A stretch of DNA of 46,262 bases from a virus. Within the stretch, counting starts at the first letter, position 1. Each line of letters starts with the position of its first letter. The translations under genes were made by a program, and so were the position numbers. Shown in pieces: positions 10,355-46,262 of this stretch. The notes beneath the pieces were generated by a model. It was not told the DNA's origin, did no database searches, and was given only the letters and a program-made list of their open reading frames with translations. The stretch lies in IMG/VR virus record IMGVR_UViG_3300043788_000121, positions 1 to 46,262 of that record; one strand, 5' to 3'.

Positions 10355-12310
10355 CTACCAGCTCCCGGTCCCGCTGCCAGCCAGGCCAGTCCCGGCTGCT
10401 GCCAGGGCTTTTGGGTCGTCCTCACCGGCCTTGAACAGGACCCGCGGGTCGTCGGCCAGCTCGGGCACGAGTACTTTCGCCAGCCCGGCGGTCAGCACCT
10501 CGCATTCGAACAGCCGGCCGCGCGTGCCTTTGCGGGCCCACGACTTCAAAGCGGCGGCCTCGGCTTTCGCGGCCGGCTTGCCGTCCTGGTCTTTCGGCTG
10601 CGGCTGCCCCTGCTGCTGCTGGCCTTGTGCCGGCACGGGTGCCTCACCGGGCAGCGGCGGGCCGCCCGGCGTGCCCGGCTTCACCGTCGCCGGCTGGATC
10701 AGCGTCCCCGCCGGCGCCACCTTCGACGCGCCGTCCAGGGCGACGATGCCGCGGTCCGACATGAGCATCGCCATGTCCGCCTCAGCGAACGGGAACGCCG
10801 GCAGGCCGCGGCGGGCACGGTCCTCGTTCAGTGTCATCCGCCCCGACTGGACCTGGTTCTGCGCCACCGCGTCCGCGGCCGCCTCATCCTCCGACTCAAG
10901 GCCGAGGATCTGCACGCACAGTTCCGGCGGCATTGCCAGGTGCCGGCGGGCCAGCCGGGTCGCGATCCGGCCCACCCATCCGGCGTCAGGGATGCGGGTG
11001 ATGCGGTTCAGCACATCCTCTTCACCTTCATGGAACGACGCGCCCAGGGAACCGACCTCGGGGAAACCCAGCTCGGTCGCGGTCATGCCGAAGTCACCGG
11101 CGACCAGCTTGATCAGGAACATGTCATAGTCGGGGCGGTACTGTTCCGGCACCGTCGCCGCCTGGACCGGGTCGACACCGGGCGGCATCAGCTCCCACCG
11201 CTGCCGGGCCTGGGTGTTGCCGGCCAGGTGGTCGTTCAGTGCCCGGTTCCACGCTTCCCACTGCTGCACCGACCAGTCCGTTGCCCCGTCAACCTTCAGG
11301 TAGGAGGACGGCATGACACCTTCGGTGTACTCGGCGAGGATCCAGCCCATCCGCCGCATCCACACGATCCCGTCGAGCAGCGCGATCTCCGTCGCCGACA
11401 TGCCGTACGGCGACTGGTCCCGGTAGATGGTCCGCTCATACAGCAGCTCATCCGAGGACAGGCCGGAGATGACAGGCTGCCCGTCGGCGCCCGTCAGGGG
11501 CTTGCCCTGCGGGTCCAGTTCGGGTGTGGCGGTCCATTCGCCGCGCGGGTAGCCGTACAGGATCTGCTGGTACGCCGGATAGGGGGGCAGCGGACGGCCG
11601 CCGTACTCATCGAGGAGCGGCTTGATGGTGCACCCGGCGATGACCTCCAGGGCGAACAGTTCCCCGCCCAGGGTGAGCCTCGGGTAGACAACCGTCGCGT
11701 CATATTTGAGCCGGTTCTCCATCAGCGCACTGGTCCACAGCCGCCAGTCCAGGCCGTTCTTCCGGTCCGGCACCTCCAGCCAGCCGGAGATGCGGGCGAT
11801 CTCAGCGGTGTACTTCTTCCGGATCGCCGACTCGACATCGGATTTTGACTGGCCGGTGACCGCGGTTTCCCTGGCGACTGCTTTCGGGTCGACGGCGACA
11901 GCGAAGTCGAGGGAGCAGATGCCTTTGCGGCGTTCGATGCACTTGCGGAACAGGGGCGTGTCCGCGGCTTCCTGAAGGATCCGCCACGGCACGTAGGGTG
12001 CCGTGCTGAGGTTGATGTTCGTGCTGATCGGCAGTTCGAACAGCCGCGGGTCGGGGCGCCCGGTGCGCTGGCGGGGGACGTTGACCGGGTTGGTGCGGAG
12101 CGGGTCGCCGGGCCCGAACGGCAGCTGCGACCAGGCGGGGTCGCGGGGCATCGGGGTGGCGCGGGCGGCCTGCTGGGAGGCTTGCATGAACACGGACAGC
12201 TGGTCGCCGGTCAGGGTGACGCTGGCGCCGCGGCCGCCGGGCTGACCAGGTGCGGGGCGTGCCTTGACAGCGGGGCCGCGGTGCCGGTTACGGGCAGAGC
12301 GGCGCGACAC
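10355..12310 (-). CDS. Portal protein
   Basis: 651 residues with a GTG start at 12310. The dodecameric portal forms the DNA channel at one capsid vertex. Recognisable parts are the N-terminal entry (PYVPWRILQEAADTPLFRKC), the helix pair in the stem (GIVWMRRMGWILAEYTEG), the wing (GDFGMTATELGFPEVGSLGA) and a C-terminal Gln/Pro-rich tail (about residues 555-600). The length is at the upper end for HK97-type portals because of this tail. It sits directly downstream of a small Cys-motif protein and the terminase genes. Confidence 0.9.
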   Translation of the reverse strand: MSRRSARNRHRGPAVKARPAPGQPGGRGASVTLTGDQLSVFMQASQQAARATPMPRDPAWSQLPFGPGDPLRTNPVNVPRQRTGRPDPRLFELPISTNINLSTAPYVPWRILQEAADTPLFRKCIERRKGICSLDFAVAVDPKAVARETAVTGQSKSDVESAIRKKYTAEIARISGWLEVPDRKNGLDWRLWTSALMENRLKYDATVVYPRLTLGGELFALEVIAGCTIKPLLDEYGGRPLPPYPAYQQILYGYPRGEWTATPELDPQGKPLTGADGQPVISGLSSDELLYERTIYRDQSPYGMSATEIALLDGIVWMRRMGWILAEYTEGVMPSSYLKVDGATDWSVQQWEAWNRALNDHLAGNTQARQRWELMPPGVDPVQAATVPEQYRPDYDMFLIKLVAGDFGMTATELGFPEVGSLGASFHEGEEDVLNRITRIPDAGWVGRIATRLARRHLAMPPELCVQILGLESEDEAAADAVAQNQVQSGRMTLNEDRARRGLPAFPFAEADMAMLMSDRGIVALDGASKVAPAGTLIQPATVKPGTPGGPPLPGEAPVPAQGQQQQGQPQPKDQDGKPAAKAEAAALKSWARKGTRGRLFECEVLTAGLAKVLVPELADDPRVLFKAGEDDPKALAAAGTGLAGSGTGSW

Positions 12311-12922: not shown

Positions 12923-14455
12923 TCATGCCCTCAGCTTCCCGCTTGTCAGCGCCGAGAAAAAATCGCTGGTCGAATTCCGCGGCACATAGAAGGCCAGCAG
13001 CAACGCCTCCGCCTCATCCGGTGACCCGCCCGTCCGCTCCCGGATGTCATCCTTCGGCTCGATCTGAATCCGGCCCTTCACATCCTCGAGGTAGCGGGGC
13101 TGGAGCAGCTGCGCTGTCGTTGTCTCCGCGGCTTCCATCCGCGACAGGTCCCATTCACGTTTCTGCGACCCGACCCGGCCGATCATCCACCACAACTCGG
13201 CGCGCTTGTTGATGAACTTCACCGGGTCAGTGGCCTGCTCGGCGACGTTCACCGCGTGGATCACGGCCTGGTGGTCGCCGCGGCGGCCCATGTTGCGGAG
13301 CTCGCCGACAACGTTGAACCCGACGCCGATCGAGTCGACCTTCACTGCGGTGGCGCTGGTTTCGCGGATGCAGCGGAGGATCAGCGGCGCGATTTCCTCG
13401 GGCCGGTCGGACCGCAGTTTCCATTGCCGGCCGGCGCGGATACCGCAGCGTTCCCGGATGACGGTCCAGTCGCCGCCGCCGCCGACGTCGACACCGAGTT
13501 CCACGGGTGACAGGAGCGAGCCGGGCTGGACGTCGGGGAACTGGCAGGCCAGCAGATCCGCCACCGACACGACCTGGCGGGGATGGTCGGACGGGAATTC
13601 CGCCAGCACTTTCGAAATGTACTTGTAGTCATCGGTGCCCCACTCGTCAGCACGGTCCTGCGCCCATGCCGGTGTCACCAGCGCGCCGGCGACCTCGCGG
13701 GGAACGTCGCCGCCTTCGTCGGTGAAGTTCGGCGAGTCGAACACGGAGATCTTGTGCTTTGCCCAGCCGGGATGCTCGGGGCGGCAGACACGGGCGAAAT
13801 GGGAGCCGGGATTGTCGGGGTTGCCGATCGCCAGGATCCGGCAGTTGTCCGTGGTGGTGACGGTCTCGACGGCGTTCCACAGCCACTCGGGCACGCCGGA
13901 CGCTTCGTCGAGGATGACCAGGACACCGCCGATGCGGTGGTAGCCCTGGAACGTGGCCGGGTCGAAGTCGGAGCCGCGGGCATTGTCGGGTGGCTTGCGG
14001 CCGATGCCGACCTGCCTGCCGTTGATCTTCCACTCGTCCGTGGCCAGCGCGTTCCCGGCGAGTTGCAGCCTGCGGTGCAGCGCGCGGATTTCTTCCCACA
14101 AGATGCCGTGGACCTGGTCGTAGGTCGGTGCGGTGGTGATCACCATCGAGTCGGGGTGGGTGTCCACCCACCAGCCGGCGAGCACGGCCGCGGTGAACGA
14201 CTTCCCGACAGCGTGGCCGGCGCGGACGACGGTGCGCTTGTTGCGTTCTACCGATTCGGCGATGCGGCGCTGCGCCGACCACAGGTATACGCCGCGTGCC
14301 GTGGCCCAGCCGACCGGGTCACGTGGCTGCCGGGCGCTCTTGGCCTGCTTCAGTGTCTCCAGCAGCGCCTGGCGCTCGGCCAGGTTCCATGTCTCCCATC
14401 CCGCCGGCAGCTGCAAGTTCGGCGGCGAGCTGGCGGATGGCCTGGTCGGTGGCAT
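12923..14455 (-). CDS. terL: Terminase large subunit
   Basis: 510 residues. This is the ATP-driven DNA packaging motor and nuclease. Walker A is RAGHAVGKS at about 78-86, Walker B is VLVILDEA at 178-185, and a coupling TTDNCRILAIGNP follows. The RNase H-like nuclease domain begins at LGVDVGGGGDW (Asp near 323), with VKVDSIGVG near 370 and SPDEAEALLLAF near 484 giving the further acidic residues. The 5' end overlaps TerS by 137 bases; the N-terminal residues (LPAGWETWNLAERQALLETL) look genuine, so the overlap is probably real. It is followed by the dyad at 12823-12893. Confidence 0.93.
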   Translation of the reverse strand: MPPTRPSASSPPNLQLPAGWETWNLAERQALLETLKQAKSARQPRDPVGWATARGVYLWSAQRRIAESVERNKRTVVRAGHAVGKSFTAAVLAGWWVDTHPDSMVITTAPTYDQVHGILWEEIRALHRRLQLAGNALATDEWKINGRQVGIGRKPPDNARGSDFDPATFQGYHRIGGVLVILDEASGVPEWLWNAVETVTTTDNCRILAIGNPDNPGSHFARVCRPEHPGWAKHKISVFDSPNFTDEGGDVPREVAGALVTPAWAQDRADEWGTDDYKYISKVLAEFPSDHPRQVVSVADLLACQFPDVQPGSLLSPVELGVDVGGGGDWTVIRERCGIRAGRQWKLRSDRPEEIAPLILRCIRETSATAVKVDSIGVGFNVVGELRNMGRRGDHQAVIHAVNVAEQATDPVKFINKRAELWWMIGRVGSQKREWDLSRMEAAETTTAQLLQPRYLEDVKGRIQIEPKDDIRERTGGSPDEAEALLLAFYVPRNSTSDFFSALTSGKLRA

Positions 14456-16567: not shown

Positions 16568-17674
16568 TCAGGTACGTCGCGTGATCTGCGCGTACATCTC
16601 TGGTGTGACCCGGACCGGGTGGGACGGGTCGTCGTAACCCCACGCCGCGGCGGCGAGGGGAGTCTCGATGTTCTTCGGGACGGTCAGTCCGAAGCGGCGG
16701 CGCGAGCCGTCCATCTCAGGTGTGCCGTTCCATGCGAGCAGCAACCGGACCGGGGTGCCCCACAGCCGCTCGGGCACGTCGTACAGCTCGATCTCCAGGC
16801 CAGGGTTTCCCGGGTCTGGTTCGGCTGCCACGCGATCCAGCTTTGCCTGCCGGGTAAAAACGTCCCAGCCGAGGGATTCGATGGCGCAGCGGCGGATCTC
16901 GACGTTTTCCTCGGCGCCGATCGCGGTGATGTCAGGCCGTTCGATAACCCAGGCGGGTACTGGCCGGCCGTGCCAGGCGTAGAACCCCCAGCTGTCCGGG
17001 TATCCGAGTGCCATGCCTGTAGCTGAGTGGAAGCGGCCGAGCGGGTCACGGTGCAGTGCGGACGGCCGCCCGGACAGGATGACAGCGCCGCGGAGCGGTA
17101 TCCACCAGCCGAGCTCACGGACCGCGGCCTCCAGCGCGTCGAGTTTCGGTTCGGGTCTGAGCCCGGCGATGGGCAGTGCGCAGTGGTAGAACGCGAGCCA
17201 GTAGGCGTCACGCCACGGGTACAGCGAGTAGTTCCAGATCCAGCTGGATGCCTGGTCCCCGAGCTGGCCCCGGAGCTGGCCCCCGAGCTGGTCCCCGAGC
17301 TGGCCCCGGAGCTGGCCCCCGAGCTGGTCCCAGAGCTGGCCCCCGAGCTGGCCCCAGAGCTGGCCCCGGAGCTGGCCCCGGAGCTGGCCCCGGAGCTGGT
17401 CCCCGAGCTGGTCCCCGAGCTGGATGTTCTTCGGCTTGGTCGTGAACAGTCCAGTTAGGACGGTCGCGGCGTAGATGCAGCCGAGCGGTGAGTCCATCCA
17501 GATGGTGAGCGGCGGGAACGGCAGGGAGTGCGCCTCGTAGAGGCGGCGGACGGCAGTCTCGGCTGCTGGCCGGCTGACAGGTGCGGTGGACAGTGCGGTG
17601 GTCATCCACTGGTCGCGGACGGTGGTGATGGTGTCGAGCTGGCTGCGGGTGAGGGTGCCCGCGTATGCGGTCAC
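16568..17674 (-). CDS. DUF6745-like protein with 14 tetrapeptide repeats
   Basis: 368 residues. Residues 1-85 are helical (DTITTVRDQWMTTALSTAPV; PLGCIYAATVLTGLF). Residues 86-141 are fourteen xxQL units (GDQL, RGQL, WGQL, GGQL). The C-terminal part has the HRDPLGRFHSATGMALGYPD segment near 208-227 and GFYAWHGRPVPAWVIERPD, which resemble the conserved core of the uncharacterised family I recall as DUF6745. Relatives in actinobacterial genomes often carry similar low-complexity repeats in the same place. The gene pairs with 16128-16550. It lies in the early region between replication genes and small zinc proteins. Function unknown. Confidence 0.7.
   Translation of the reverse strand: MTAYAGTLTRSQLDTITTVRDQWMTTALSTAPVSRPAAETAVRRLYEAHSLPFPPLTIWMDSPLGCIYAATVLTGLFTTKPKNIQLGDQLGDQLRGQLRGQLRGQLWGQLGGQLWDQLGGQLRGQLGDQLGGQLRGQLGDQASSWIWNYSLYPWRDAYWLAFYHCALPIAGLRPEPKLDALEAAVRELGWWIPLRGAVILSGRPSALHRDPLGRFHSATGMALGYPDSWGFYAWHGRPVPAWVIERPDITAIGAEENVEIRRCAIESLGWDVFTRQAKLDRVAAEPDPGNPGLEIELYDVPERLWGTPVRLLLAWNGTPEMDGSRRRFGLTVPKNIETPLAAAAWGYDDPSHPVRVTPEMYAQITRRT
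17261..17428. repeat. 12-bp minisatellite, 14 copies in frame
   Basis: The plus-strand heptamer GAGCTGG starts every 12 bases from 17261 to 17417, 14 times without a break, with the unit GAGCTGGYCCCN and few variants. Because 12 is divisible by 3, copy-number changes keep the frame. The encoded units are xxQL with x mainly G, R, D or W. Confidence 0.95.
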
Positions 17675-26518: not shown

Positions 26519-26786
26519 CCTGCGCCAGTGGGGTCCCGAGCTGGTCTGCGGCGGCCTCTGCCTGATCCTGGCCGGCACCCGCCAGCCAGCGGGCGCCGGC
26601 GCTGTCGCGCTCGTCCTCGGCATCGGCTGGTGGATGGGGCACCGCCACCGGACGCTGCCGCTGCACCGGCAGGTCCGCGAGATCTGGGAGACCACCCGGC
26701 GCATCGAGGACAGGGGCCTCGGCGAGGAGGGCCCGGGGGATGCTGCCGGGCCGCTGGCCCGCGTGCTGCCGATGCGCCGCCGCTAA
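26493..26786 (+). CDS. Small membrane protein between repressor and integrase
   Basis: 97 residues from a GTG at 26493 with GCAGGAAGAAG upstream, overlapping the repressor end by 26 bases. Two short hydrophobic helices (GPELVCGGLCLILAGT; GAGAVALVLGIGWWMG) are followed by a cytosolic charged tail (HRQVREIWETTRRIEDRGLG). Position in the lysogenic operon suggests expression in the prophage state, for example as an exclusion protein. Family not recognised. Confidence 0.6.
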   Translation: MTGRRALSSLRQWGPELVCGGLCLILAGTRQPAGAGAVALVLGIGWWMGHRHRTLPLHRQVREIWETTRRIEDRGLGEEGPGDAAGPLARVLPMRRR

Positions 26787-26802
26787 GGCGCACACTGAAG
26801 AC

Positions 26803-27966
26803 ATGGGCAAGGTAAACCGGCGCCAGCACGGCGAGGGTTCGGTCTATCAGCGCAAGGACGGCCGCTGGGTCGCTGCCGAGGACCTGGGCGTGCGCGGCGG
26901 GAAGCGGGACCGGCGGTATTTCTACGGTGCGACCGCCGATGAGGCCATGAAGAAGCGCGAGCGGTTCCGGGACCGGCGCAAGGACGGGTTCACCCTCCCG
27001 AAGGGGCGGCAGCCCTATGTCAGCGAGTGGCTGCTGCACTGGTTTCACACCACGTGCAAGCGCGAGGTCGAGGAGACGACCTGGCAGGGGTACAAGTCCA
27101 AGGTTGAGCTCTGGACCGCGCCGTTCTTCGAGCGGGTGCTGCTGGCGGAGCTGACCGAGGAGGACATCGAGGACTGGCATGCGTGGATGGAGGGTCAGGT
27201 CAGCGGGAAGACGGGCCGGCCGCTGTCGCCCTCGACGATCGGGCAGACGCACCGCATCCTGTCGGAGTGCGTCAGGCTGGCTGTCGCACGCGGCCGGACC
27301 CCGCGGAACCCGGTGTCGAACGTGACGCCTCCCCCGGCGGCCCTGCCGGATCTGGAGCCGCCGACTGCGGCGGAGGTGAGGCGGATCATGGCCCGCTGCC
27401 GGACGTGGCCGACTGGCGCCCGGTGGGTGCTGGGCATTACGACGGGGCTGCGGCAGGGGGAGATTCTCGGCCTGGAGTGGCCGCAGGTGAAGCTGGACGG
27501 TGACCGGCCGTCGGTGAGCGTGCTGCGGTCGGCGGCGCGGGTGAGCGGCAAGGGCCGCGTGGTGAAGGCGCCGAAGTCACGGTCGTCCAGGCGCTCGGTC
27601 CCGCTCTCGGTCGAGGCTGTCGCCGCGCTCAGGGCATTCCGGGACGGGCAGAAGGTCCGCGTCATCGGCGGGAAGGGTGATGTGCTGTTCCGCGGTTCCC
27701 GGCTGGGCCGGCCGCTGCACCCGCGGGTGGATTACGCGGACTGGCATGCGCTGCTCGATGATCTCGGCATCCCGCATTACCGGCCGCATGACATCCGGCA
27801 CGGGTACGCGACGATGCTGCTGGAGGAGGGCGTGGACCCGCGGGTGGTGCAGGCACTGCTGGGGCACAGCACGGGCGTGCTTCTGACGCGGTATCAGCAT
27901 GTGCGGGAGAACATGCATGATCAGGCGGCCAGCGCGATCAGCCGGGCGGTGTCCGGCGATGCGTGA
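26803..27966 (+). CDS. int: Tyrosine integrase
   Basis: 387 residues from the ATG at 26803; an upstream in-frame start at 26740 would overlap the previous gene and has no support. The N-terminal arm-binding region (GEGSVYQRKDGRWVAAEDLG) and the core-binding SAM-like region (YVSEWLLHWFHTTCKREVEE) precede the catalytic domain with Arg217 (GLRQGE), Lys258, His329-x2-Arg332 (RPHDIRHGYAT), His355 (LLGHS) and Tyr364 (TRYQHV). All six catalytic positions are intact. It lies directly beside attP, so it should integrate the phage at a host tRNA-Lys gene. Preceded by repressor and a membrane-protein gene. Confidence 0.95.
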   Translation: MGKVNRRQHGEGSVYQRKDGRWVAAEDLGVRGGKRDRRYFYGATADEAMKKRERFRDRRKDGFTLPKGRQPYVSEWLLHWFHTTCKREVEETTWQGYKSKVELWTAPFFERVLLAELTEEDIEDWHAWMEGQVSGKTGRPLSPSTIGQTHRILSECVRLAVARGRTPRNPVSNVTPPPAALPDLEPPTAAEVRRIMARCRTWPTGARWVLGITTGLRQGEILGLEWPQVKLDGDRPSVSVLRSAARVSGKGRVVKAPKSRSSRRSVPLSVEAVAALRAFRDGQKVRVIGGKGDVLFRGSRLGRPLHPRVDYADWHALLDDLGIPHYRPHDIRHGYATMLLEEGVDPRVVQALLGHSTGVLLTRYQHVRENMHDQAASAISRAVSGDA

Positions 27967-27986
27967 CAGCCATCCTGACAGCCTAG
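27964..27986. repeat. Putative integrase arm-type site, left arm
   Basis: TGACAGCC occurs at 27964-27971 and again at 27976-27983 (12-bp step). The 23-base block matches that at 28173-28195 at 21 positions and has the same orientation. The two blocks lie on opposite sides of the tRNA-like core, as arm-type integrase sites do. Confidence 0.7.
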
Positions 27987-28065: not shown

Positions 28066-28083
28066 ACGGGACGCTCGCAGGCT

Positions 28084-28133
28084 ACGGACTTTTAATCCGT
28101 GGGTTCTGGGTTCGAGCCCCAGGCGCCCCACCA
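28084..28133 (+). other. attP core: 3' half of a tRNA-Lys(UUU) gene
   Basis: The 50 bases form the 3' part of a tRNA: anticodon stem ACGGA/TCCGT with 7-base loop CTTTTAA (anticodon TTT at 28091-28093), a 5-base variable loop, T-arm CTGGG-TTCGAGC-CCCAG, the 3' acceptor strand GCGCCCC, discriminator A and encoded CCA. No matching 5' acceptor strand or D-arm lies upstream, so this is not a complete tRNA. It is a copy of the host gene end that restores the host tRNA after integration. Directly downstream of the integrase. Confidence 0.9.
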
Positions 28134-28172
28134 GCGGAAACAGGCCCAGGGCGCATCTTAGCGATCATGGCC

Positions 28173-28195
28173 TGACAGCCACGCTGACAGCCTAG
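28173..28195. repeat. Putative integrase arm-type site, right arm
   Basis: TGACAGCC at 28173-28180 and 28185-28192, the same 12-bp step and orientation as the block at 27964-27986. It ends 13 bases before the immunity gene start, so integrase binding here might also affect that gene. Confidence 0.7.
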
Positions 28196-28207: not shown

Positions 28208-28435
28208 ATGAACGCGCTAGGACCGCTGCTGCTCGTCGCGGCAGCCTGCTCCGCCTACTTCGCGCCGCTCCTGACGGCCTGCATCCGGGGCGTCCCGCAC
28301 AGCGGATCCGTGATCGTGATCAACGTGTTCCTCGGCTGGACCGTCATCGGCTGGGTCATCGCCATGGCGATGGCATGCCGCTCCGTCCCGCGCCGGCACG
28401 ACTACGGCAGCGGCCCGTCGGGGTGGCCGCGCTAG
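28208..28435 (+). CDS. Superinfection immunity membrane protein (Imm-like)
   Basis: 75 residues with an ATG start behind GAAGGG. Two membrane helices (LGPLLLVAAACSAYFAPLLT and VFLGWTVIGWVIAMAMA) flank a short loop with PHSGSVIVINVFLGWTVIGW, the signature of the T4 Imm-type superinfection immunity family (N-x3-GWT-x2-GW). Such proteins sit in the inner membrane and block DNA entry of related phages. It is rightward, directly beyond attP, so in the prophage it would lie near one att end and probably be expressed from a separate promoter. Confidence 0.82.
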   Translation: MNALGPLLLVAAACSAYFAPLLTACIRGVPHSGSVIVINVFLGWTVIGWVIAMAMACRSVPRRHDYGSGPSGWPR

Positions 28436-28673: not shown

Positions 28674-28904
28674 TCAGCCGCAGACGATGTTGCCCTTGCC
28701 CCACGCTGTCTGGATGAGGCCCCGGCCGCGCAGTTCCTTCATTGCCCGCCGGATCGTCCCGTAGGACACTTGGTATTCATCCGCCAGATCTGGTTCAGAC
28801 CTTAGACGGTCACCTGGCAGCAGCTCGCCGCTGCTGATCTTCGCGGCGATGCTCTCGGCCACGCGCATGTACTCCAGCGGAACGCGGCCCGACCCCTCGC
28901 TCAT
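28674..28904 (-). CDS. GntR-family regulator (KorSA-like)
   Basis: 76 residues from the ATG at 28904. The product is only the winged helix: EYMRVAESIAAKISSGELLP, GDRLRSEPDLADEYQVSYGT, IRRAMKELRGRGLIQTAWGK. There is no ligand domain. Short GntR repressors of this type control transfer genes on actinomycete plasmids and integrative elements (Kor proteins). It is divergent from the transfer-like block and faces the repeat array at 28929-28984, a probable autoregulated operator. Confidence 0.8.
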   Translation of the reverse strand: MSEGSGRVPLEYMRVAESIAAKISSGELLPGDRLRSEPDLADEYQVSYGTIRRAMKELRGRGLIQTAWGKGNIVCG

Positions 28905-28928
28905 GCCGTCACGGTAAAGGACTCCTGC

Positions 28929-28984
28929 AGCTCTGTACACAATCGGAAGCTACAGGAGCTTGAACAGCTACATAAGCTGTGTAC
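28929..28984. promoter_or_regulatory. AGCT direct repeats (9-bp period) inside a GTACACA/TGTGTAC dyad
   Basis: AGCT starts at 28948, 28957, 28966 and 28975, an exact 9-bp period over four copies; a further AGCT lies at 28929. An inverted pair GTACACA (28935-28941) and TGTGTAC (28978-28984) encloses the array. The element fills the divergent gap between the GntR gene and the transfer-like block. The dyad would suit GntR, the head-to-tail repeats a BldC/Xis-type binder. Confidence 0.65.
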
Positions 28985-28994
28985 GCTCGGATTC

Positions 28995-29186
28995 GTGGAT
29001 GACATCGAATTCGCCCAGCTGCGCCACCGACTGCTCGCCAAGCTCGCCGAGGCCGTCCAGGTCAACGAAGAGCTCGTGATCCTGGAACGCCAGGTCCAGG
29101 CCGAGGAAGAGCGCCGCTCCGCCGGCGACACCAACGTCCGCGAGTTCCGGCCGCGGCCGTCCGGCACCGCCCCGGAGGACGAGTGA
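28995..29186 (+). CDS. Small coiled-coil protein, first gene of the transfer-like block
   Basis: 63 residues with a GTG start 10 bases after the operator dyad, so a leaderless message is possible. It is a single charged helix (QLRHRLLAKLAEAVQVNEEL; VILERQVQAEEERR) with a polar tail. It overlaps the DUF2637 gene by 4 bases. Similar short proteins head such modules in actinomycete elements. Confidence 0.65.
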   Translation: MDDIEFAQLRHRLLAKLAEAVQVNEELVILERQVQAEEERRSAGDTNVREFRPRPSGTAPEDE

Positions 29187-29764
29187 GCCATTCACGGGCC
29201 CGGCGGCGGACAGCGGTTGCGGCGCTGGCACTGCTGTCGGCGATCACCGGCTACATCAGTTACCTGCACGGGTTCGAGGTCGCCATCCTCGTCCACAATC
29301 CGCGGGCGGTGGCGTACTGGCTGCCGCTAGTGCCGGATCTGATGATCGTGACGTCGTCGATGACGTTGCTGGAAGCGCGGGCGTCGGCCGGGGTGCGGCC
29401 GTTCACGTCGATGACGGCGCTGGTGGCGGGGATCGGGTGGACGGTGGCGCAGAACGTGGCGGCCGGTCTGCATGATTCTCCTGGTAACGCGCTGATTTCG
29501 GCGGGGGTGCCGCTGGCGTTCGTGCTGACGTTTGAGTCGTTGCTGTCGCAGTTCCGTCAGGCGCGCGAGGGAAAGGCGGATATTAACTGTCCGCCGGACG
29601 ACGCCGGGCCGGTGGACGTGGCGGGCACGATGCGGCAGCTGGTGGAGTTCTACGGCTCCCAGCGGGCCGCGTCGGATGAGCTGCGGATTCCTCGTGACCA
29701 TCTCCGCAAGCTGATCGCGGTCCCGGCCGGGGCGGCGATGAACGGGGACGGTCCCCATGTGTGA
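29183..29764 (+). CDS. DUF2637 membrane protein (plasmid/AICE type)
   Basis: 193 residues. Four membrane helices (AVAALALLSAITGYISYLHG; YWLPLVPDLMIVTSSMTLLE; SMTALVAGIGWTVAQNVAAG; LISAGVPLAFVLTFESLLSQ) match the DUF2637 pattern, frequent on Streptomyces plasmids and integrative conjugative elements, where it lies near FtsK-type transfer genes. The cytosolic C-terminus has an HTH-like segment (GSQRAASDELRIPRDHLRKL). Role not known; a helper for transfer or spread is inferred from context. Confidence 0.82.
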   Translation: MSHSRARRRTAVAALALLSAITGYISYLHGFEVAILVHNPRAVAYWLPLVPDLMIVTSSMTLLEARASAGVRPFTSMTALVAGIGWTVAQNVAAGLHDSPGNALISAGVPLAFVLTFESLLSQFRQAREGKADINCPPDDAGPVDVAGTMRQLVEFYGSQRAASDELRIPRDHLRKLIAVPAGAAMNGDGPHV

Positions 29765-29891
29765 GCGGTGGCGGGCGTGGCGTATTTACCGGCGGCTGGT
29801 GCGTGAGCATCTGGATGCCGGGTGGCGGCTGAGCGAGTTCACGGTGGCGGAGTTCCGGGACCGGGCACGCCGGGAGGCCAGGCGTGGCTGA
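29757..29891 (+). CDS. 44-residue basic protein
   Basis: The ATG at 29757 overlaps the DUF2637 end by 8 bases, and the end overlaps the HNH gene by 8 bases. The product is Arg/Trp-rich and helical (CERWRAWRIYRRLVREHLDA, EFTVAEFRDRARREARRG). Likely a nucleic-acid or partner-binding peptide; nothing more can be said. Confidence 0.55.
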   Translation: MCERWRAWRIYRRLVREHLDAGWRLSEFTVAEFRDRARREARRG

Positions 29892-30294
29892 GCGGATCAG
29901 GTGGCGGAAGGTCCGGCGGGCCGGGCATTGCCGGGTGGCCAGCCACGGCGGCCGGGTGCGGTCAGTCGACCGGACGCTGACCGATGGCCGGCAGTGCGGC
30001 GGCCAGGAGCTGGCCCGGTACCGCGACGGCGACGGCTACTGGCACGTCACCATCAACGGCGAGCCGGTCGCCGTGGCCAGCATCGTGCTCGAGGCATTCG
30101 ACCGGCCGCGGCCGTACGGACTGGAGGCCTGCCACGGTTCTCTCGGCCAGGACTGCAACTGTGCCGCGAACCTCCGCTGGGATACCCACCTGGAGAACGA
30201 ACGGGACAAGAGACGAGCGGAAAGAGGAAGCAGGGCGGCAGGTGGGACTTGTCAGTTCTGCATTGGGACAGCTGAGACGTGTGAGGTGCAGTGA
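29884..30294 (+). CDS. HNH endonuclease-like protein
   Basis: 136 residues with a GTG start. The N-terminal strands (GGRVRSVDRTLTDGRQCGGQ; GYWHVTINGEPVAVASIVLE) resemble the NUMOD4/AP2-like part of HNH homing-type enzymes. The core LEACHGSLGQDCNCAANLRW and DTHLENERDKRR matches HNH_3 proteins (H...N...NLRW-x-T-x2-EN-x-DK). The C-terminus adds C-x2-C (CQFCIGTAETC). In transfer modules such nucleases may nick DNA, but a selfish homing role is also possible. Confidence 0.75.
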   Translation: MAERIRWRKVRRAGHCRVASHGGRVRSVDRTLTDGRQCGGQELARYRDGDGYWHVTINGEPVAVASIVLEAFDRPRPYGLEACHGSLGQDCNCAANLRWDTHLENERDKRRAERGSRAAGGTCQFCIGTAETCEVQ

Positions 30295-31988
30295 TAGCTG
30301 TCCTCGCTGTCGCAGCTGTCCTGGCCGGGCTGGGACTCTTCCGTGAGGTCCGGTCGCGGCTGAGACGGCATGGCTGGCACCGGATCGGCTACAGGTGGCT
30401 GACGGGCAAGCCGTGGCACGGGCAGGTGATCGATCCGGCGGTGTGGCGGTGGCCGGGCCGGTGGTTCTGGCGGATGTCGCAGCCCAGGCGGGCCGGAGTC
30501 CGGCTCGCTGTGACAGCGGCCAGCGGGGGGTCTGTAGCCCTATGGCTATACACCCCCTATGTCGCTGACCTGGTTTTCCTGTCTATCAGCTTGCTGGTTA
30601 GCGGGCTGTGCGTCTGGCTGTGCGTCCGGCAGCTCCTGCCGCATCACCGCAAGTGGGTCCGGCCGCTCCACGGCGCGCTCATCGAACGGCACGGGCTGCT
30701 GCGGCCGCCGCAGATCGACCGTGACCGCTCCCGCGTGGTGCAGCCGCTGCCGCGGGCGTGGGCCGGCGACGCGAAGGAACGCGCCGCGATCGTCGAGGTC
30801 ATCGTGGCCAAGACCGGCATCCCCGCGCCGGAAGCCAGGTGGCGGCTTGCCGGGCCGGCGCCGCGGCTGGAGCTGACGACCGGCGCGTCCGTCCCGGCGA
30901 CCGTCCGGCTCGCTGACGTGCGCCGGGCCATTGACGCGGCGAAACCGGACGAGCTGATCTGGGGTCTCGGCCGTGACGGGCCGGTGAAGTCGTCGCTGGC
31001 CAGCGACTCGCCTCACCTGGGGCTGTCGATGGGATCCGGTGCGGGGAAGTCGGTCACGATCCGCGCGATCCTCGCCCAGATGCTGCACCACGGCGCGATC
31101 GCGCTGGTCATCGACTACAAGCAGATCAGCCAGCACTGGGCACGTGACCTGCCGAACGTGTCGATTGTCCGGCACCCGCAGGAGATCCACGCCGCGCTGA
31201 TGTGGCTGGGCCGGGAGATCAGCCGCCGTAACGAGGTCGCGTTCTATGGTGCCGACCTTGAGGGCAACGTCCATTCGGTGGTCGGGCCGCGGCTGATCAT
31301 CGCCGGTGAGGAACTGAACGCGGCGATGAAGGCGCTGCGGATCTACTGGCGGCAGCTCCGCGACGAGGACAAGTCCCTGCCGGTCCGGCCGCCGTCGCTG
31401 GATTCGCTGGACCTGGTGAACCTGATGGGCCGGCAGGTGCTGATGAACATGCTGTATGTCGGGCAGCGGCTGTCGAACAAGGCGTCCGGCGGTGACGGTG
31501 ATGTGCGTGAGTCGATCGGCGTGATCGCGCTCGGCCGGTACAAGGCGTCGACGTGGAAGATGCTCGCCGAGGATCATCCGATGCCGCCGTCGACGCGGAA
31601 GCCGGGCCGGTTCCAGGTCGTCGCCGATGACGTGACCGAGGTCCAGGGCATCAAGATCACTGCGGTTGAGGCGCGTGAGCTGGCGTTGTCGGGGACGGTG
31701 TCGCTGCTGCCGCCGGGCATGCCGGGTGCACCGCGTGTCGCAGCTGGGACCGGACTAGCTATTTCCGGGACTGAGCAGGGGTTTGTCGCAGAGACATCGC
31801 CTGTTGTCTCAGTGCCGTCCGGCCGTGTGACGTTGTCGGAGGCGGTTGAGGAGGGGGTTGTGAGGCGGTCTTTGCATGCGGTGCGGAAGGCGTCGCAGCG
31901 TGATCCGGGGTTCCCGCGGCCGCGGGGGCTGCGGGGTACGGCACGTGAGTATGACCGGGTGGACCTGATGACGTGGGACGAGTCATGA
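30291..31988 (+). CDS. FtsK/SpoIIIE (TraB-like) DNA translocase
   Basis: 565 residues. The N-terminal 120 residues contain one or two membrane helices (GSVALWLYTPYVADLVFLSI, SLLVSGLCVWLCVRQLL). The motor domain has Walker A SMGSGAGKS at about 246-254, VIDYKQISQHW near 273-283 and the Walker B region LIIAGEELNA near 334-343. The C-terminus is a winged-helix-like segment (GRVTLSEAVEEGVVRRSLHA) that could recognise DNA repeats, as in TraB of Streptomyces plasmids, which moves double-stranded DNA between hyphae. It lacks the FtsK length. A clt-type repeat cluster was not found. Confidence 0.88.
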   Translation: MIAVLAVAAVLAGLGLFREVRSRLRRHGWHRIGYRWLTGKPWHGQVIDPAVWRWPGRWFWRMSQPRRAGVRLAVTAASGGSVALWLYTPYVADLVFLSISLLVSGLCVWLCVRQLLPHHRKWVRPLHGALIERHGLLRPPQIDRDRSRVVQPLPRAWAGDAKERAAIVEVIVAKTGIPAPEARWRLAGPAPRLELTTGASVPATVRLADVRRAIDAAKPDELIWGLGRDGPVKSSLASDSPHLGLSMGSGAGKSVTIRAILAQMLHHGAIALVIDYKQISQHWARDLPNVSIVRHPQEIHAALMWLGREISRRNEVAFYGADLEGNVHSVVGPRLIIAGEELNAAMKALRIYWRQLRDEDKSLPVRPPSLDSLDLVNLMGRQVLMNMLYVGQRLSNKASGGDGDVRESIGVIALGRYKASTWKMLAEDHPMPPSTRKPGRFQVVADDVTEVQGIKITAVEARELALSGTVSLLPPGMPGAPRVAAGTGLAISGTEQGFVAETSPVVSVPSGRVTLSEAVEEGVVRRSLHAVRKASQRDPGFPRPRGLRGTAREYDRVDLMTWDES

Positions 31989-32182
31989 GTGACCTGATCC
32001 CGGTCCTGATTGTCGTGGTGCCGGTGGCGGGCTGGCTGGCGGATGCGTGGCTGCGTCCGTGGCTGCCGTGCAGCTGCCAGGGCCGTAAGTGCGCGCGCTG
32101 CCGGTGGGCGGGCAAGCGGCCGAAGATGCTCGCTCGCGTGGTGCGGCGGGCTCATCTGAGAGATGAAGGGTGGCTGAAATGA
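31985..32182 (+). CDS. Small membrane protein after the translocase (Spd-like)
   Basis: 65 residues with an ATG overlapping the translocase stop. An N-terminal membrane helix (LIPVLIVVVPVAGWLADAWL) is followed by a Cys-rich basic tail (WLPCSCQGRKCARCRWAGKR). Short membrane proteins after traB genes are often spread (Spd) proteins in Streptomyces plasmids; this assignment is by position only. Confidence 0.65.
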   Translation: MSDLIPVLIVVVPVAGWLADAWLRPWLPCSCQGRKCARCRWAGKRPKMLARVVRRAHLRDEGWLK

Positions 32183-32289
32183 GGAAGCGATTCAGGCGGG
32201 GTTCGCCGAACAGTCAGTGCGGGTGCTGCGGCTGCCGCAAGTGGCTGTGCTCATGCAAGTGCTGCTGCGGGAAGGGCAAGCGGCGGTGA
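32179..32289 (+). CDS. 36-residue Cys-rich microprotein
   Basis: The ATG at 32179 overlaps the upstream stop (ATGA) and the stop overlaps the next GTG. Nine of 36 residues are Cys (CGCCGC, then CSCKCCC), the rest mostly Lys/Arg/Gly. The pattern is like metallothionein or a zinc/iron-binding peptide. Similar clusters of Cys appear in the preceding protein's tail. No family recognised; too short for most gene callers. Confidence 0.6.
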   Translation: MRKRFRRGSPNSQCGCCGCRKWLCSCKCCCGKGKRR

Positions 32290-32384
32290 GAACGATGTCG
32301 GGCCGCGACTGGCTGACCGACCCGTCCGAGATACGCCGCCGGAAGATCTCCAAAGCCAGCTATGACAAGCGGGGGGCCAATTAG
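32286..32384 (+). CDS. 32-residue basic peptide
   Basis: A GTG at 32286 overlaps the upstream stop (GTGA); an ATG at 32295 is an alternative. The product contains SGRDWLTDPSEIRRRKISKA and ends at a TAG that overlaps the next GTG. Its place in a chain of overlapping genes supports translation. Unknown. Confidence 0.5.
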   Translation: MRTMSGRDWLTDPSEIRRRKISKASYDKRGAN

Positions 32385-32791
32385 TGGAGCGGTTCAAATT
32401 CGCGCTGAAGGTCGCGGGGGCGTTCGGGCTGGTGCCGCCGGGCGGCATCCTGGCGGTCGAGACGGTGAACTCACGGTCGCTGACCGGCATCGCCGATCAT
32501 GCGGGGCTCGTGGTGCGGGTCGCGGTCGCGGTCGTGTACAGCCTGGTGCTGGTGGCCCTGACGGTCCTGGCGTTGCTGTGGCGGAAGCACCGGCGCGTTG
32601 AGACGTGGCGGCCCGCCCGGCCCGTGAAACCCCCCGTGCCGGCGCTGCCGAAGGCACGGTTGCGGCTGCAGCTGGAACCACCGGAACTGCCCGGGCGGAT
32701 GGCGATGATCGAGGCCGACGCCCGCCGCCGGCATAAGGCAGGCCGGTACGTGGTGGCCGGCCAGATCGTGAAAGACGACGACGGGTCGTGA
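32384..32791 (+). CDS. Membrane protein of the transfer-like block
   Basis: 135 residues with a GTG start in TAGTG. One strong membrane helix (AVAVVYSLVLVALTVLALLW) and possibly a weaker first one (ALKVAGAFGLVPPGGILAVE), then a Pro/Arg-rich cytosolic tail (RPARPVKPPVPALPKARLRL). Could be a further Spd-like protein. No domain recognised. Confidence 0.6.
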   Translation: MERFKFALKVAGAFGLVPPGGILAVETVNSRSLTGIADHAGLVVRVAVAVVYSLVLVALTVLALLWRKHRRVETWRPARPVKPPVPALPKARLRLQLEPPELPGRMAMIEADARRRHKAGRYVVAGQIVKDDDGS

Positions 32792-32925
32792 GCCGGAAAC
32801 GCCGGTTTTATTCGCTGCTGGGTCATGCGAAGTGGCTGGTCCGGTTCGGCCGGTACCGTGAGGCGCGGATGGTGCTGGCCAGCGCGCAGGACGAACTGGA
32901 CCGCATCGAGGAAACCGGCCGCTAG
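32788..32925 (+). CDS. 45-residue helical protein, last of the block
   Basis: A GTG at 32788 overlaps the upstream stop. The product reads FYSLLGHAKWLVRFGRYREA, RMVLASAQDELDRIEETGR, helical and basic. Its stop overlaps the end of the leftward GntR gene by 4 bases, so two transcripts meet here without an intergenic terminator. Unknown function. Confidence 0.55.
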   Translation: MSRKRRFYSLLGHAKWLVRFGRYREARMVLASAQDELDRIEETGR

Positions 32926-33173
32926 CCCGGTTTCCATCCGGGCCGGGGCGTGACGTACATGCCCCGGCCCATCACTGTCCGGATCCTGCCCTCACCGCGA
33001 AGCACGTCCAGGGCCTGCTCTACCACCCCCTGCGACACGCCCAGCTCCTGCCGCAGCGACACTTTCGACGGGATGGGCCGGTCGGCCGCGTACTCCCCCG
33101 ATTCGATCCGGTCCCGGATCCACCCGGCGACCTGCACGTACAGCGGCACCGGGCCCTCAAAGTCGATGCTCAT
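32922..33173 (-). CDS. Second GntR-family regulator
   Basis: 83 residues from the ATG at 33173. Only the winged helix is present (PLYVQVAGWIRDRIESGEYA, RPIPSKVSLRQELGVSQGVV, EQALDVLRGEGRIRTVMGRG). It differs clearly from the GntR protein at 28674, so the two flank the transfer-like block with separate specificities. It faces three GTACC motifs at 33188-33263, a likely operator. Confidence 0.8.
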   Translation of the reverse strand: MSIDFEGPVPLYVQVAGWIRDRIESGEYAADRPIPSKVSLRQELGVSQGVVEQALDVLRGEGRIRTVMGRGMYVTPRPGWKPG

Positions 33174-33187
33174 ACCCCCGCAACCTA

Positions 33188-33263
33188 GGTACCGGCAGGT
33201 AACTGTCACCTCCCGGATACACCCCCGTGCACTATCTAGTACCCGGGGGCGCACAGAGGTACC
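33188..33263. promoter_or_regulatory. Three GTACC motifs between divergent genes
   Basis: GGTACC at 33188 and 33258 and AGTACC at 33238 lie in the 99-base gap between the GntR gene and the rightward gene at 33273. The last copy is 10 bases before that start. GGTACC is itself palindromic. Candidate operator for the adjacent GntR protein; no clear promoter boxes can be assigned. Confidence 0.5.
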
Positions 33264-33627: not shown

Positions 33628-34302
33628 TTACCGCCAGCTCGCCCCGCCGTCAGCGGACAGCACCTTCCGTGACGTCCCGCCCGGCAGCACCACCACAATC
33701 CCCTCCAGCTCGCGCACCGGCCCGGGTTCGGGTGCCTCACCGTCACGGATCTCCTTCGCCAGCTCCACGATCCGGGTCCGCTGCCCGGCACGCACCGGCC
33801 CCGGGCAATCCGGATGGTCACCCCACGCCACCCCGCCCATCGAATGAATGCCGAGGCCCTGCACATCCACTGAATCCGTCACCCGGAGCTCGAACCCGGC
33901 GAAACGGCTGAGCAGCTCGAGGAGCTGCGCCCCGGCAGTGATCTGAGCGTCGGTCAGGGGGTTGGCAGGGTCCTGGTTGTCGGCCATCTCGATCGAATAC
34001 CAGGCCGGGTTCCCGGCCGCCTCGGCCCACGCCATCCAGTCTTTGCCGACCGGGCCGAACTGGTGGATGCCGCCGTCCTGGTCGATGCCGAAGAACGCCG
34101 ACGCCTCCGACGCCGGGTCGTTGAACCAGGAGATCGTGCCGGGCAGGTTCCCGGCCATGGTGTGCAGGACGACGCCGGTCATGGCGCCGGACCCGCCGGG
34201 GGTTCCGTTCGCGCACGGCCACGGGTCGTTGTAAGTGATCGACGCGGCACCGGAAACGCGACCCGATCCGGTGTCTGCTTCCAGGCGTCCTGGTGTGCTC
34301 AT
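33628..34302 (-). CDS. Endolysin: N-acetylmuramoyl-L-alanine amidase
   Basis: 224 residues with an ATG start at 34302 overlapping the upstream stop. Amidase_2/PGRP fold: GVVLHTMAG (His47), FFGIDQDGGIHQFGPVGKDW, WYSIEMADN, and GIHSMGGVAWGDHPDCPG (His153, Cys166), which supply the zinc ligands. The C-terminal 50 residues (REL-EGIVVVLPGGTSRKVLSA) form a small extra domain, perhaps wall-binding. No signal peptide, so export needs a holin, for which candidates lie directly upstream. It cuts the bond between MurNAc and L-Ala and is the last late gene. Confidence 0.88.
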   Translation of the reverse strand: MSTPGRLEADTGSGRVSGAASITYNDPWPCANGTPGGSGAMTGVVLHTMAGNLPGTISWFNDPASEASAFFGIDQDGGIHQFGPVGKDWMAWAEAAGNPAWYSIEMADNQDPANPLTDAQITAGAQLLELLSRFAGFELRVTDSVDVQGLGIHSMGGVAWGDHPDCPGPVRAGQRTRIVELAKEIRDGEAPEPGPVRELEGIVVVLPGGTSRKVLSADGGASWR

Positions 34303-40249: not shown

Positions 40250-42348
40250 CAGGACCGCCTGCCGGGGAGCACCAGCATGGACCCGGTGTTGCCGAGTGCG
40301 GCGGTGAGGACGGCGGCCTGGACGTGCCGCTGGAGGGCCTGCTCGTAGGCGGGGTGGGTCATGATGCCGGCGACGTCGACGGACACGTTGTGGTGGACGT
40401 TGACGGCGTTGACGGTACCGCCGCCTCCGCCGCCGGGGGCTGAGCTGGCGACGCCGAGCCAGTGCTCGACGTCGCCGCCGAGACCCGCGATTTTCCCGAC
40501 GATGCCCTCGACGGTGCCCACGATCGAGTTGAGGCCGGGGATCGAGTTCTCGATGCCGCCGATCAGCCCGCCGATCAGCTCGCGGCCGGCACTGACCAGC
40601 AGGTGACCCAGGTCTCCCAGTGCATGCAGGATGTCACCGGGGATGTCCCTGGTGAATGCGACAACTTTGGCCCAGCCGCCGTCCCAGTCCCCGATGACCC
40701 GCTCGAGCAGCCCGGACGTCCAGGCGATCAGCGACCGGCCCCCGGCCGCGGCGGTGCTGACGATGCCGCCCATGATCCGGCCCGCGGTCAGGAGCAGGTG
40801 TTCCCAGCCGTTGTCCCAGTCTTCCGCGATGTCATGGACCGCATCCTGGATTGAGCCGATAATGTCATGGTTTGCCTGGGTGACGGTGTGAACGATGTCG
40901 TCCCACCGCCGCCGGGCATCCCCGGCCATGATCGCGAGGGCGTTGTCGACGCCGTCCATCGCCCGGTTGAACGTCCCGAGGACATCCTCGGCGCCGTGGA
41001 TGATCCGGGTGATCCGGATCTGCCAGGCATCCCAGCCGTTCGCGTCGTCCCTGACCACGCGGGCGATGAAGTTGAACGTGCCGGAGATGAAGTCGAAGAA
41101 GATGTTGAGGGCGTGCGCGACGTCCTTCGATGACAGTGTCGTCATCAGCTTGCCGATGGAGATGAGGATCTTCCCGATGCCCTCGCCGATGGCTTCGGTG
41201 GCGGGGCCGATGTAGGTGTCGGCTTTCCGCAGCCAGTCCTGGAAGCCTTTCGACTGGACGAACCCGCCGAGTTTGCCCAGCAGGTCGTCCATGGCGCCGG
41301 CGAAGTCGCGGGCCTGCGGGAGCAGGGCGGGCATGAACTCGCCGAGATCCTTGAAGAACTGGGTGAACACGGCGATCGCGGACGGCGCGAACGCTTTCGC
41401 CAGGCCGTCCCATTCTTTCTTCAGCGGGCCGAGCTGGTCCTCGACTTTCCTGAATGACGGGATGGCGAGGAGCGCGAACGCGATCGCGCCGGCGCTGGCG
41501 GCGGCGAACCCGGAGATGACCGCGCCGATCTCGGTGATGATCGCGGTGACCGCGGGTGCGATCAGCCCGATCCCGGCGGCGAGCGCACCCCAGTACTGCG
41601 GGTTGACGGCCTGCGCGGCCAGGCCGGCGAGCCAGCCGGGCGGCGGGGCGTCGTTCCCGCCGAGGCCCGTCAGCTTCTCCAGGTCCTGGCCGATGTTCGC
41701 GCCCTTGATCAGGATGTCCAGGTCACGGAGCGAGTTGCGGTAGTCGTCGATGGCGCCGCGGCCGAGAACGAACGCCTCGTTGCCGTCGCGGGTCGCGTCT
41801 TCCAGGTCCCGTTCGGTGACCTCATAGGTTTTCGCGACGCCGTCGAGGTCGTCCATGGACAGGTGATAGGAGTCGATGCCGCGCTTGCCCAGCAGGAACT
41901 GGTCCCCGAGCTCGGCGTCCGAGAGCATGTCGCGGAGGTTTTTCAGCGTCCCGTACAGGTCGTCACCCGACCCGGACGTGCGGTCCAGTTCCTCCCGGAA
42001 CGCCTCCGCTTCCGCGGACGCGGCGGCTACCTCGCCGGCCCAGACGAAAAACGACTCCGTCTGGTCATGCAGCTCATGGTCGGTTTCGGCGAGCTCGTCA
42101 CGGACCGACTTCTCAGCCTCGGCGAATCCTTCGGCCGACCCGGACGCGTCATCCATTTCCCCGTCGAGAGCATCCAGGCTGTCGCCGGCGTCGCCGGCGG
42201 CGCCGGACAGTTCCCCGAGCTTGTCGACGGCATCTTTGACGGTGCCGGCGAACTCGGCGGTGTCGTCGCCGGCTTCCTGCATAGGGCGGACGTAGTCGGC
42301 GAAGTCGGCGATGAAACGCTGGGTTACCGGATCAAGTTCGTCGGACAC
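40249..42348 (-). CDS. Tape measure protein
   Basis: 699 residues with an ATG start at 42348. It sets tail length and is carried in the tail lumen. Long helical N-terminal region (DYVRPMQEAGDDTAEFAGTV, KDAVDKLGELSGAAGDAGDS), hydrophobic central segments at about 245-300 (GALAAGIGLIAPAVTAIITE, IGAVISGFAAASAGAIAFAL), further helices, and a Gly/Ile-rich end (LIGGLIGGIENSIPGLNSIV). By the usual rule of about 0.15 nm per residue the tail would be near 105 nm. It follows the frameshifted chaperones and a gp10-like gene. Confidence 0.88.
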   Translation of the reverse strand: MSDELDPVTQRFIADFADYVRPMQEAGDDTAEFAGTVKDAVDKLGELSGAAGDAGDSLDALDGEMDDASGSAEGFAEAEKSVRDELAETDHELHDQTESFFVWAGEVAAASAEAEAFREELDRTSGSGDDLYGTLKNLRDMLSDAELGDQFLLGKRGIDSYHLSMDDLDGVAKTYEVTERDLEDATRDGNEAFVLGRGAIDDYRNSLRDLDILIKGANIGQDLEKLTGLGGNDAPPPGWLAGLAAQAVNPQYWGALAAGIGLIAPAVTAIITEIGAVISGFAAASAGAIAFALLAIPSFRKVEDQLGPLKKEWDGLAKAFAPSAIAVFTQFFKDLGEFMPALLPQARDFAGAMDDLLGKLGGFVQSKGFQDWLRKADTYIGPATEAIGEGIGKILISIGKLMTTLSSKDVAHALNIFFDFISGTFNFIARVVRDDANGWDAWQIRITRIIHGAEDVLGTFNRAMDGVDNALAIMAGDARRRWDDIVHTVTQANHDIIGSIQDAVHDIAEDWDNGWEHLLLTAGRIMGGIVSTAAAGGRSLIAWTSGLLERVIGDWDGGWAKVVAFTRDIPGDILHALGDLGHLLVSAGRELIGGLIGGIENSIPGLNSIVGTVEGIVGKIAGLGGDVEHWLGVASSAPGGGGGGTVNAVNVHHNVSVDVAGIMTHPAYEQALQRHVQAAVLTAALGNTGSMLVLPGRRS

Positions 42349-46186: not shown

Positions 46187-46262
46187 CAGGACCGCCACAC
46201 GGGTGCGTACCGCTGCAGCCACCCGTACGCGTCGTTGATCAGGGAACCGCCGGCGCCGCGCG
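46186..46262 (-). CDS. Head-tail connector protein (3' end, continues from 1-923)
   Basis: Reading leftward from the repeat at 46262, the connector frame goes through Ser-Leu-Ile-Asn-Asp-Ala-Tyr-Gly-Trp and ends VWRS at a TGA (46188-46186). That stop overlaps the next ATG by one base. The short C-terminal Trp-rich end is typical. The first residues coded here duplicate those at 3-28. Confidence 0.8.
   Translation of the reverse strand, partial: RGAGGSLINDAYGWLQRYAPVWRS
46237..46262. repeat. Terminal direct repeat, right copy
   Basis: The last 26 bases are identical to 3-28. Removing one copy joins the ends into a circle of about 46,236 bp with an uninterrupted connector gene. Confidence 0.85.

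Follow-up and report, generated by a model that had tools for sequence, protein, structure and literature searches.

The viral record IMGVR_UViG_3300043788_000121 of IMG/VR (46,262 bp; G000, here called the window in its full length) is a complete temperate tailed phage of actinobacteria, with genes for the large terminase subunit (TerL), portal, tape measure, endolysin and integrase and a closed genome, and it carries between its attachment site and its lysis genes a block of genes built around a double-stranded DNA (dsDNA) translocase. The block (28674-33173) is probably a plasmid-related, GntR-controlled, TraB-like cassette for dsDNA translocation, kept by temperate actinophages at the prophage end beside attP, by which the phage would spread or be transferred without virions. 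More tentatively, and at a little under even confidence, there may be a broad class of temperate actinophages that move horizontally in two ways: as virions, and by an inbuilt dsDNA transfer system of TraB-like kind, made up of motor, DUF2637 protein and zinc-ribbon protein. This system, which in one branch would have a CTAG array as its transfer site, would spread the prophage through and between mycelia, the motors being exchanged among phage and plasmid lineages.

The translocase (30291-31988, + strand) was assigned to the FtsK/TcpA-fold dsDNA motors of the pRL2-11 family by profile, tree and fold. Pfam gave a weak FtsK_SpoIIIE stretch below the cut-off (0.0044) and the profile of the translocase's own family matched strongly; phmmer matched TcpA of pCW3 (4e-4). 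The best PDB matches of the AlphaFold model (predicted local distance difference test, pLDDT, 85) were the conjugation protein TcpA (8e-16) and FtsK motors (E about 1e-15). The Walker A (MGSGAGKS, invariant K253/S254) and Walker B (IIAGEE, E340/E341) motifs were intact and were kept in 24 homologues. Where the preliminary description of this DNA had seen membrane helices and a C-terminal winged helix, the protein has N-terminal membrane segments (1-22 and 88-118, by hydropathy) and a DNA-binding-like C-terminal domain (about 512-564; helical/beta, conserved in the cassette clade), which would bind DNA.

Relatives of the translocase were found by tblastn on 85 plasmids, mostly of Streptomyces (15 covering >=80% of it), with homologues along most of its length on plasmids of Streptomyces, Planobispora (pPR2) and Pseudonocardia. 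In an IQ-TREE tree of 52 motors, the window motor grouped with four viral motors (100/98) within the pRL2-11 family, which stood apart (100/100) from TraB, FtsK and EccC. The window motor is placed in the pRL2-11 family by the shared clade and by a homology that spans most of the protein, and the clade holds actinomycete plasmids and not only packaging or segregation proteins. The search of genomes with the close clade gave matches in 2 of 297 only; a scan of viral contigs for close relatives with the single translocase protein returned nothing, and alignments did recover relatives. Within the translocase family, L059-L073 (Micromonospora, Actinoplanes, Dactylosporangium) made up a well supported Micromonosporaceae group, some members of which adjoined DUF2637 and some of which were near tail genes.

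The cassette was carried by four further viral contigs (L022-L025), with translocases 47-57% identical to the window's, an HNH gene directly 5' of the translocase in all four, DUF2637 detected by profile in three, and GntR divergent. Their other genes were mostly unrelated to those of the window, and their structural genes had no similarity to the window's beyond weak tape-measure and a few other weak single-gene matches. Portal and capsid genes were present in the L022 and L024 records and a tape measure in L025; the 15-kb fragment L023 yielded no phage hallmark. The integrases adjoining the cassette in L023 and L025 were 51-52% identical to the window integrase; L022 (51,327 bp, with a 117-bp terminal repeat) has at the integrase position a recombinase-like 525-aa gene whose sequence suggests a serine integrase. 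Among 28 viral records with the window's motor family, DUF2637 was found in 18 and TerL of one family in 15. The translocase block is a recurrent cassette and not an oddity of a single phage. L022 also has a tandem pair of HNH genes 5' of the translocase (8912-9851), where the other phages have one. One viral record of 57 kb (G012; L031 and L086) has two translocases, a pRL2-11-type one and a TraB-like one that is accompanied by DUF2637, GntR and a zinc-ribbon protein, and may be a prophage beside an actinomycete integrative and conjugative element (AICE).

Exchange of the motor was seen in a sister phage, G002 (IMGVR_UViG_3300037258_000357), which is colinear with the window over RecE/RecT, TerL, the portal, the tail genes and the lysis genes (about 26-78% identity). 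In the same place it has GntR, a 69-aa frame, DUF2637, a 61-aa frame, a 687-aa motor and a 77-aa membrane CxxC protein of the zinc-ribbon kind, and an integrase-like frame at the opposite contig end. The G002 motor was outside the window's subfamily; it was about 50% identical to the motors of pPaSha2 and of the NBC_00562 plasmid, matched pSVH1 TraB (5e-18) and grouped with it in the tree (99/90). Because backbone, place and partners are the same and the motor is another, which would be hard to explain unless DNA translocation were under selection, the comparison argues for such selection. The arrangement being shared by G002 and other phages, an assembly join of two molecules was ruled out.

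A TraB-like motor was also present in pPaSha2 (CP052773.1, L131), whose deposited record is a circular plasmid of 41.9 kb from the cultured strain Pseudonocardia alni Shahu. Its annotation lists terminase, portal, prohead protease, capsid and holin, and an integrase-DUF2637-FtsK series (TraB-like type) adjoins the holin; its backbone matched the window in RecE/RecT only. By its gene content, this 'plasmid' is a phage genome carrying a DUF2637-FtsK cassette. The paper on P. alni Shahu is about gene tools and makes no mention of the element by name.

The pRL2-11/DUF87-annotated plasmid motors (pPR2, NBC_00691, S. goshikiensis) were about 30-34% identical to the window motor over most of the length and shared its C-terminal domain. 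Gene order was alike in pPR2 (small open reading frame (ORF), DUF2637, small ORF, translocase) and in the NBC_00691 plasmid (DUF2637, small ORF, translocase, with GntR divergent), and follows the plan of pSVH1, but these plasmids were without annotated virion genes, and the HNH gene before the translocase was a feature of the phage clade. The small plasmid p7 of S. albidoflavus has DUF2637 at the spdB position, 3' of FtsK/TraB. The window resembled in plan pSVH1, where a GntR gene is divergent from small ORFs, a membrane Spd protein (SpdB2) and the FtsK-type motor TraB, and pIJ101, where GntR is divergent from tra; it differed from both TraB systems in a motor of a separate clade, DUF2637 for SpdB2, the lack of an array of TraB-recognition repeats, and being phage-borne. 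It shared with AICEs of the pSAM2 and pMR2 type an integrase into a tRNA gene, an FtsK-type Tra and GntR control, but was without RepSA, RepAM and Prim-Pol and had phage head, tail and lysis genes. Three tblastn queries against the window, namely pSVH1 Rep, NBC_00562 Prim-Pol/YfjI and the product of the first p7 gene, assumed to be Rep, gave nothing better than E 0.7, and the replication gene of the window was a phage-type initiator instead of an AICE rep.

TcpA of pCW3 was the best fold match to the window motor and a weak sequence match. TcpA acts with further conjugation proteins of pCW3, but no partners of that kind were noticed in the window. The Streptomyces phages Gilgamesh, Dagobah and Geonosis likewise have an FtsK-type ATPase; that of Dagobah (L002, 2547-3476) is an unannotated 309-aa ATPase-only relative without the N-terminal membrane part and the C-terminal domain, with a close relative in L046, and Dagobah differed in that no DUF2637 was found beside it. 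The preliminary description had seen here the gene set of Streptomyces plasmids and AICEs without a RepSA-type gene. The kinship with plasmids and the lack of RepSA, plasmid Rep and Prim-Pol relatives stood, but the motor was neither a classical TraB nor an AICE Tra (100/100), and likeness to TraB and AICE systems as worded there was not supported, with neither a clt-like array nor an AICE-type rep found in the window. The cassette is not an AICE and, by clade and clt, not a classical TraB system, though apparently TraB-like in its working.

Candidate transfer sites were found with TraB-like motors. As a control, pSVH1 has GACCCGGA four times directly 3' of traB, which are its TraB-recognition repeats. 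Among the 83 loci of the TraB-like branch, 21 had 4-7 CTAG tetramers within 150 bp past the motor stop; of 1011 stops taken as controls, only 6 had two or more (p 5e-20 by Fisher's test, which is inflated, as the CTAG-array loci are related and not independent). The usual form was GCTAGRCCTAGC repeated and then GCTAGC, and arrays stood 0-150 bp past the translocase stop in L137, L143, L150, L152, L134, L132 and others, the array being conserved in many actinobacterial viral records. A TerL, tape-measure or capsid gene was present in at least 14 of the 20 array-bearing viral records searched, G002 included. A small zinc-ribbon protein (CxxCxGxG...CxxC) was often encoded 3' of the TraB-like motor. 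The arrays could be a candidate clt or, alternatively, a regulatory or replication site; a search of open-access papers turned up no description of them. A clt-like repeat common to pRL2-11-type relatives was searched for and none was found. The mild CTAG excess of the window module (10 vs. 2.6 expected, p 4e-4, uncorrected, 256 motifs) was not array-like and was not used.

In the favoured reading, the translocase would form a membrane-anchored FtsK-type hexamer, with a pore, at cross-walls or hyphal contact points and, with the DUF2637 protein (in the SpdB place, with a DNA-binding-like tail) and the zinc-ribbon and membrane proteins, would pump double-stranded phage DNA. The cargo would be the excised circle, or the prophage with flanking chromosome, and the destination the next compartment or a touching hypha, which would give spread without virions. 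GntR control would silence the cassette at other times, and the nearby Imm protein would guard the new lysogen. Gene content, fold, intact Walker motifs, plasmid kinship, recurrence and the exchange of the motor were observed; the hexamer and its pore, the DNA cargo, the timing and transfer as such are inferred. This working was proposed because of the analogy with pSVH1 and pIJ101: TraB is hexameric at clt and transfers dsDNA, Spd proteins serve spread across cross-walls, and SpdB2 is a DNA-binding membrane protein (PMC4170104). Several points weigh against it. The window yielded no clt-like repeat array, and the statistics on the CTAG arrays come from related loci that are not independent. 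The window DUF2637 protein had no Pfam match for SpdB2 or SpdB, and the fold search of its model against the PDB gave no match. IMG/VR 'viral' records may include misassigned integrative elements, for which reason the counts were based on hallmark genes alone. To our knowledge, no relative of the exact clade has been assayed for transfer.

It is unlikely, though the best placed of the alternatives, that the motor serves segregation with no mating, drawing trapped phage or chromosomal DNA across septa in lytic growth or when sporulation septa form, so that every compartment keeps the prophage or receives phage DNA. The motor is FtsK-like, spreading and stability of plasmids are inseparable in a mycelium (PMC4170104), and the phage encodes a ParB-like protein, but GntR control, the DUF2637 and Cys-protein partners and the closest kin are those of conjugative-type plasmids, and host FtsK falls in a different clade. 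The N-terminal membrane part, the C-terminal domain and the partners are kept in the cassette clade, and the motor was exchanged for a TraB-like one in G002; both stand against a moron that acts on the host, serving superinfection exclusion, takeover or replication and unrelated to export of phage DNA, which is improbable although the Imm-type immunity gene adjoins the cassette, PHROG puts one FtsK-like family under moron/host takeover, Dagobah keeps its ATPase-only relative with no DUF2637 found beside it, and the FtsK-like gene of Geonosis was suggested as a possible replication factor (PMC11536984). That the block is selfish plasmid cargo which the phage picked up but does not use, as its place at the cargo-prone prophage end beside attP might suggest, is very improbable, given intact frames, catalytic residues conserved in the 24 homologues, recurrence beside int or lysis and tail genes in many phages, and a motor exchanged with the partners kept.

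Phages and conjugative elements are treated as two distinct routes of gene flow. If dsDNA transfer by the cassette is true, a phage of a mycelial host could colonise the mycelium while lysogenic, and could mobilise chromosomal DNA; pPaSha2 brings the question of transfer within reach of a test, P. alni Shahu being in culture and genetically tractable. An FtsK-like gene has been described in phage Geonosis (PMC11536984), and that of phage Gilgamesh is already on record. The AICE survey (PMC3218068) admitted only elements with all of Int, Tra and Rep; those with at most two of the three were put down as remnants or prophages, and such elements were thus excluded by its design. The P1-like elements reported in a phage-plasmid study to have gained a relaxase or oriT after losing phage genes (PMC10879196) are a different phenomenon from the translocase cassette. 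In the open-access literature, to which the search was confined, nothing resembling the cassette as a whole turned up.

The cassette region runs from attP to the lysis genes, and its GC content equals that of the rest of the phage. The operon had been described as DUF2637, HNH and translocase genes with several small membrane or Cys-rich ones, flanked by two GntR genes, and all its parts were found, the profile-based ones with matches. GntR regulator 1 (28674-28940, - strand; PF00392 E 3e-14) is divergent from the operon, in which a 63-aa ORF comes first (28995-29186, +; open frame with coding bias), followed by the DUF2637 membrane protein as the SpdB-position partner (29183-29764, +; PF10935 E 3e-9), a 44-aa ORF (29757-29891, +; weak coding score), the HNH protein (29884-30294, +; phrog_1492 E 5e-22) and the translocase. 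On its 3' side are a 69-aa protein with a single membrane helix and the Cys cluster CSCQGRKCARC (31973-32182, +; sequence, hydropathy), which is the counterpart of the zinc-ribbon protein 3' of the translocase in other phages, a 55-aa ORF (32217-32384, +; coding bias), a 135-aa membrane protein (32384-32791, +; coding bias, hydrophobic segment 33-69) and, as the last gene, a 45-aa ORF (32788-32925, +). GntR regulator 2 (32922-33254, - strand; PF00392 E 6e-12) is convergent at the end.

Of the separate operator-like motifs proposed for the two regulators, inverted repeats were found in the divergent promoter gap between gntR1 and the operon (AAGCTACAGGAGCTT, 28947-28961, and ACAGCTACATAAGCTGT, 28964-28980), and only a weak one, GCGCACAGAGGTACCCTGCGC, in the region 5' of gntR2. 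The AlphaFold model of the DUF2637 protein (pLDDT 78) had four long helices and a small C-terminal helix-turn-helix-like domain, the C-terminal part being of low confidence. With this protein as query, INPHARED phages gave no match. PHROG family phrog_733, named excisionase, matched DUF2637 membrane proteins, that of the window (29183-29764) among them, and its name is probably misleading.

The block first delimited at 28674-33173 is real but extends further left, to the attP core and the gene of an Imm-type superinfection immunity membrane protein (28208-28435, +; PF14373 E 1.5e-13). The tyrosine integrase (26740-27966, +; PF00589 E 5e-22) is followed by the attP core (28080-28131, +), whose sequence is that of a tRNA-Lys(TTT) gene in its 3' half, CCA included. 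The core is bracketed by integrase arm-type repeats, on the left TGACAGCC x2 at 27961-27986, in 88% direct repeat with 28170-28195 on the right. The core was matched in 10 of 10 actinobacterial genomes, with tRNA-Lys(ttt) called by ARAGORN in all four checked; the host search with the core gave no match at <=2 mismatches among 395 genomes of the class. Because attP is beside the cassette, in the prophage the cassette sits at one end, by the immunity gene and the attachment site.

That the surrounding phage is complete, as had been noted, was confirmed by closure and gene order. A 26-bp repeat at both window ends (3-28 and 46237-46262) closes the window to a circle, and the left-end reading frame runs on briefly past the junction. 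On the minus strand, TerL (12926-14455) and the portal gene (10358-12310) come first, then the head genes, the junction, the neck, the tape measure (40252-42348), the minor tail genes and last the endolysin (Amidase_2, 33631-34302; PF01510 E 2e-11), and the head genes cross the junction into the tail and lysis genes on one strand; the endolysin is the right-hand phage border of the cassette. No library put the name of major capsid on any window protein. Replication and recombination genes lie at 18-23 kb (phage initiator, RecT-like, RecE-like and ParB-like). As to phage-plasmid criteria, the ParB-like protein is in the window, yet so are integrase and attP. Within the DUF6745 gene (16568-17674), near the replication initiator, a 12-bp repeat, CTGGCCCCGGAG, recurs about 16 times at 17216-17455; it encodes a four-residue repeat, xGQL, and might double as iterons.

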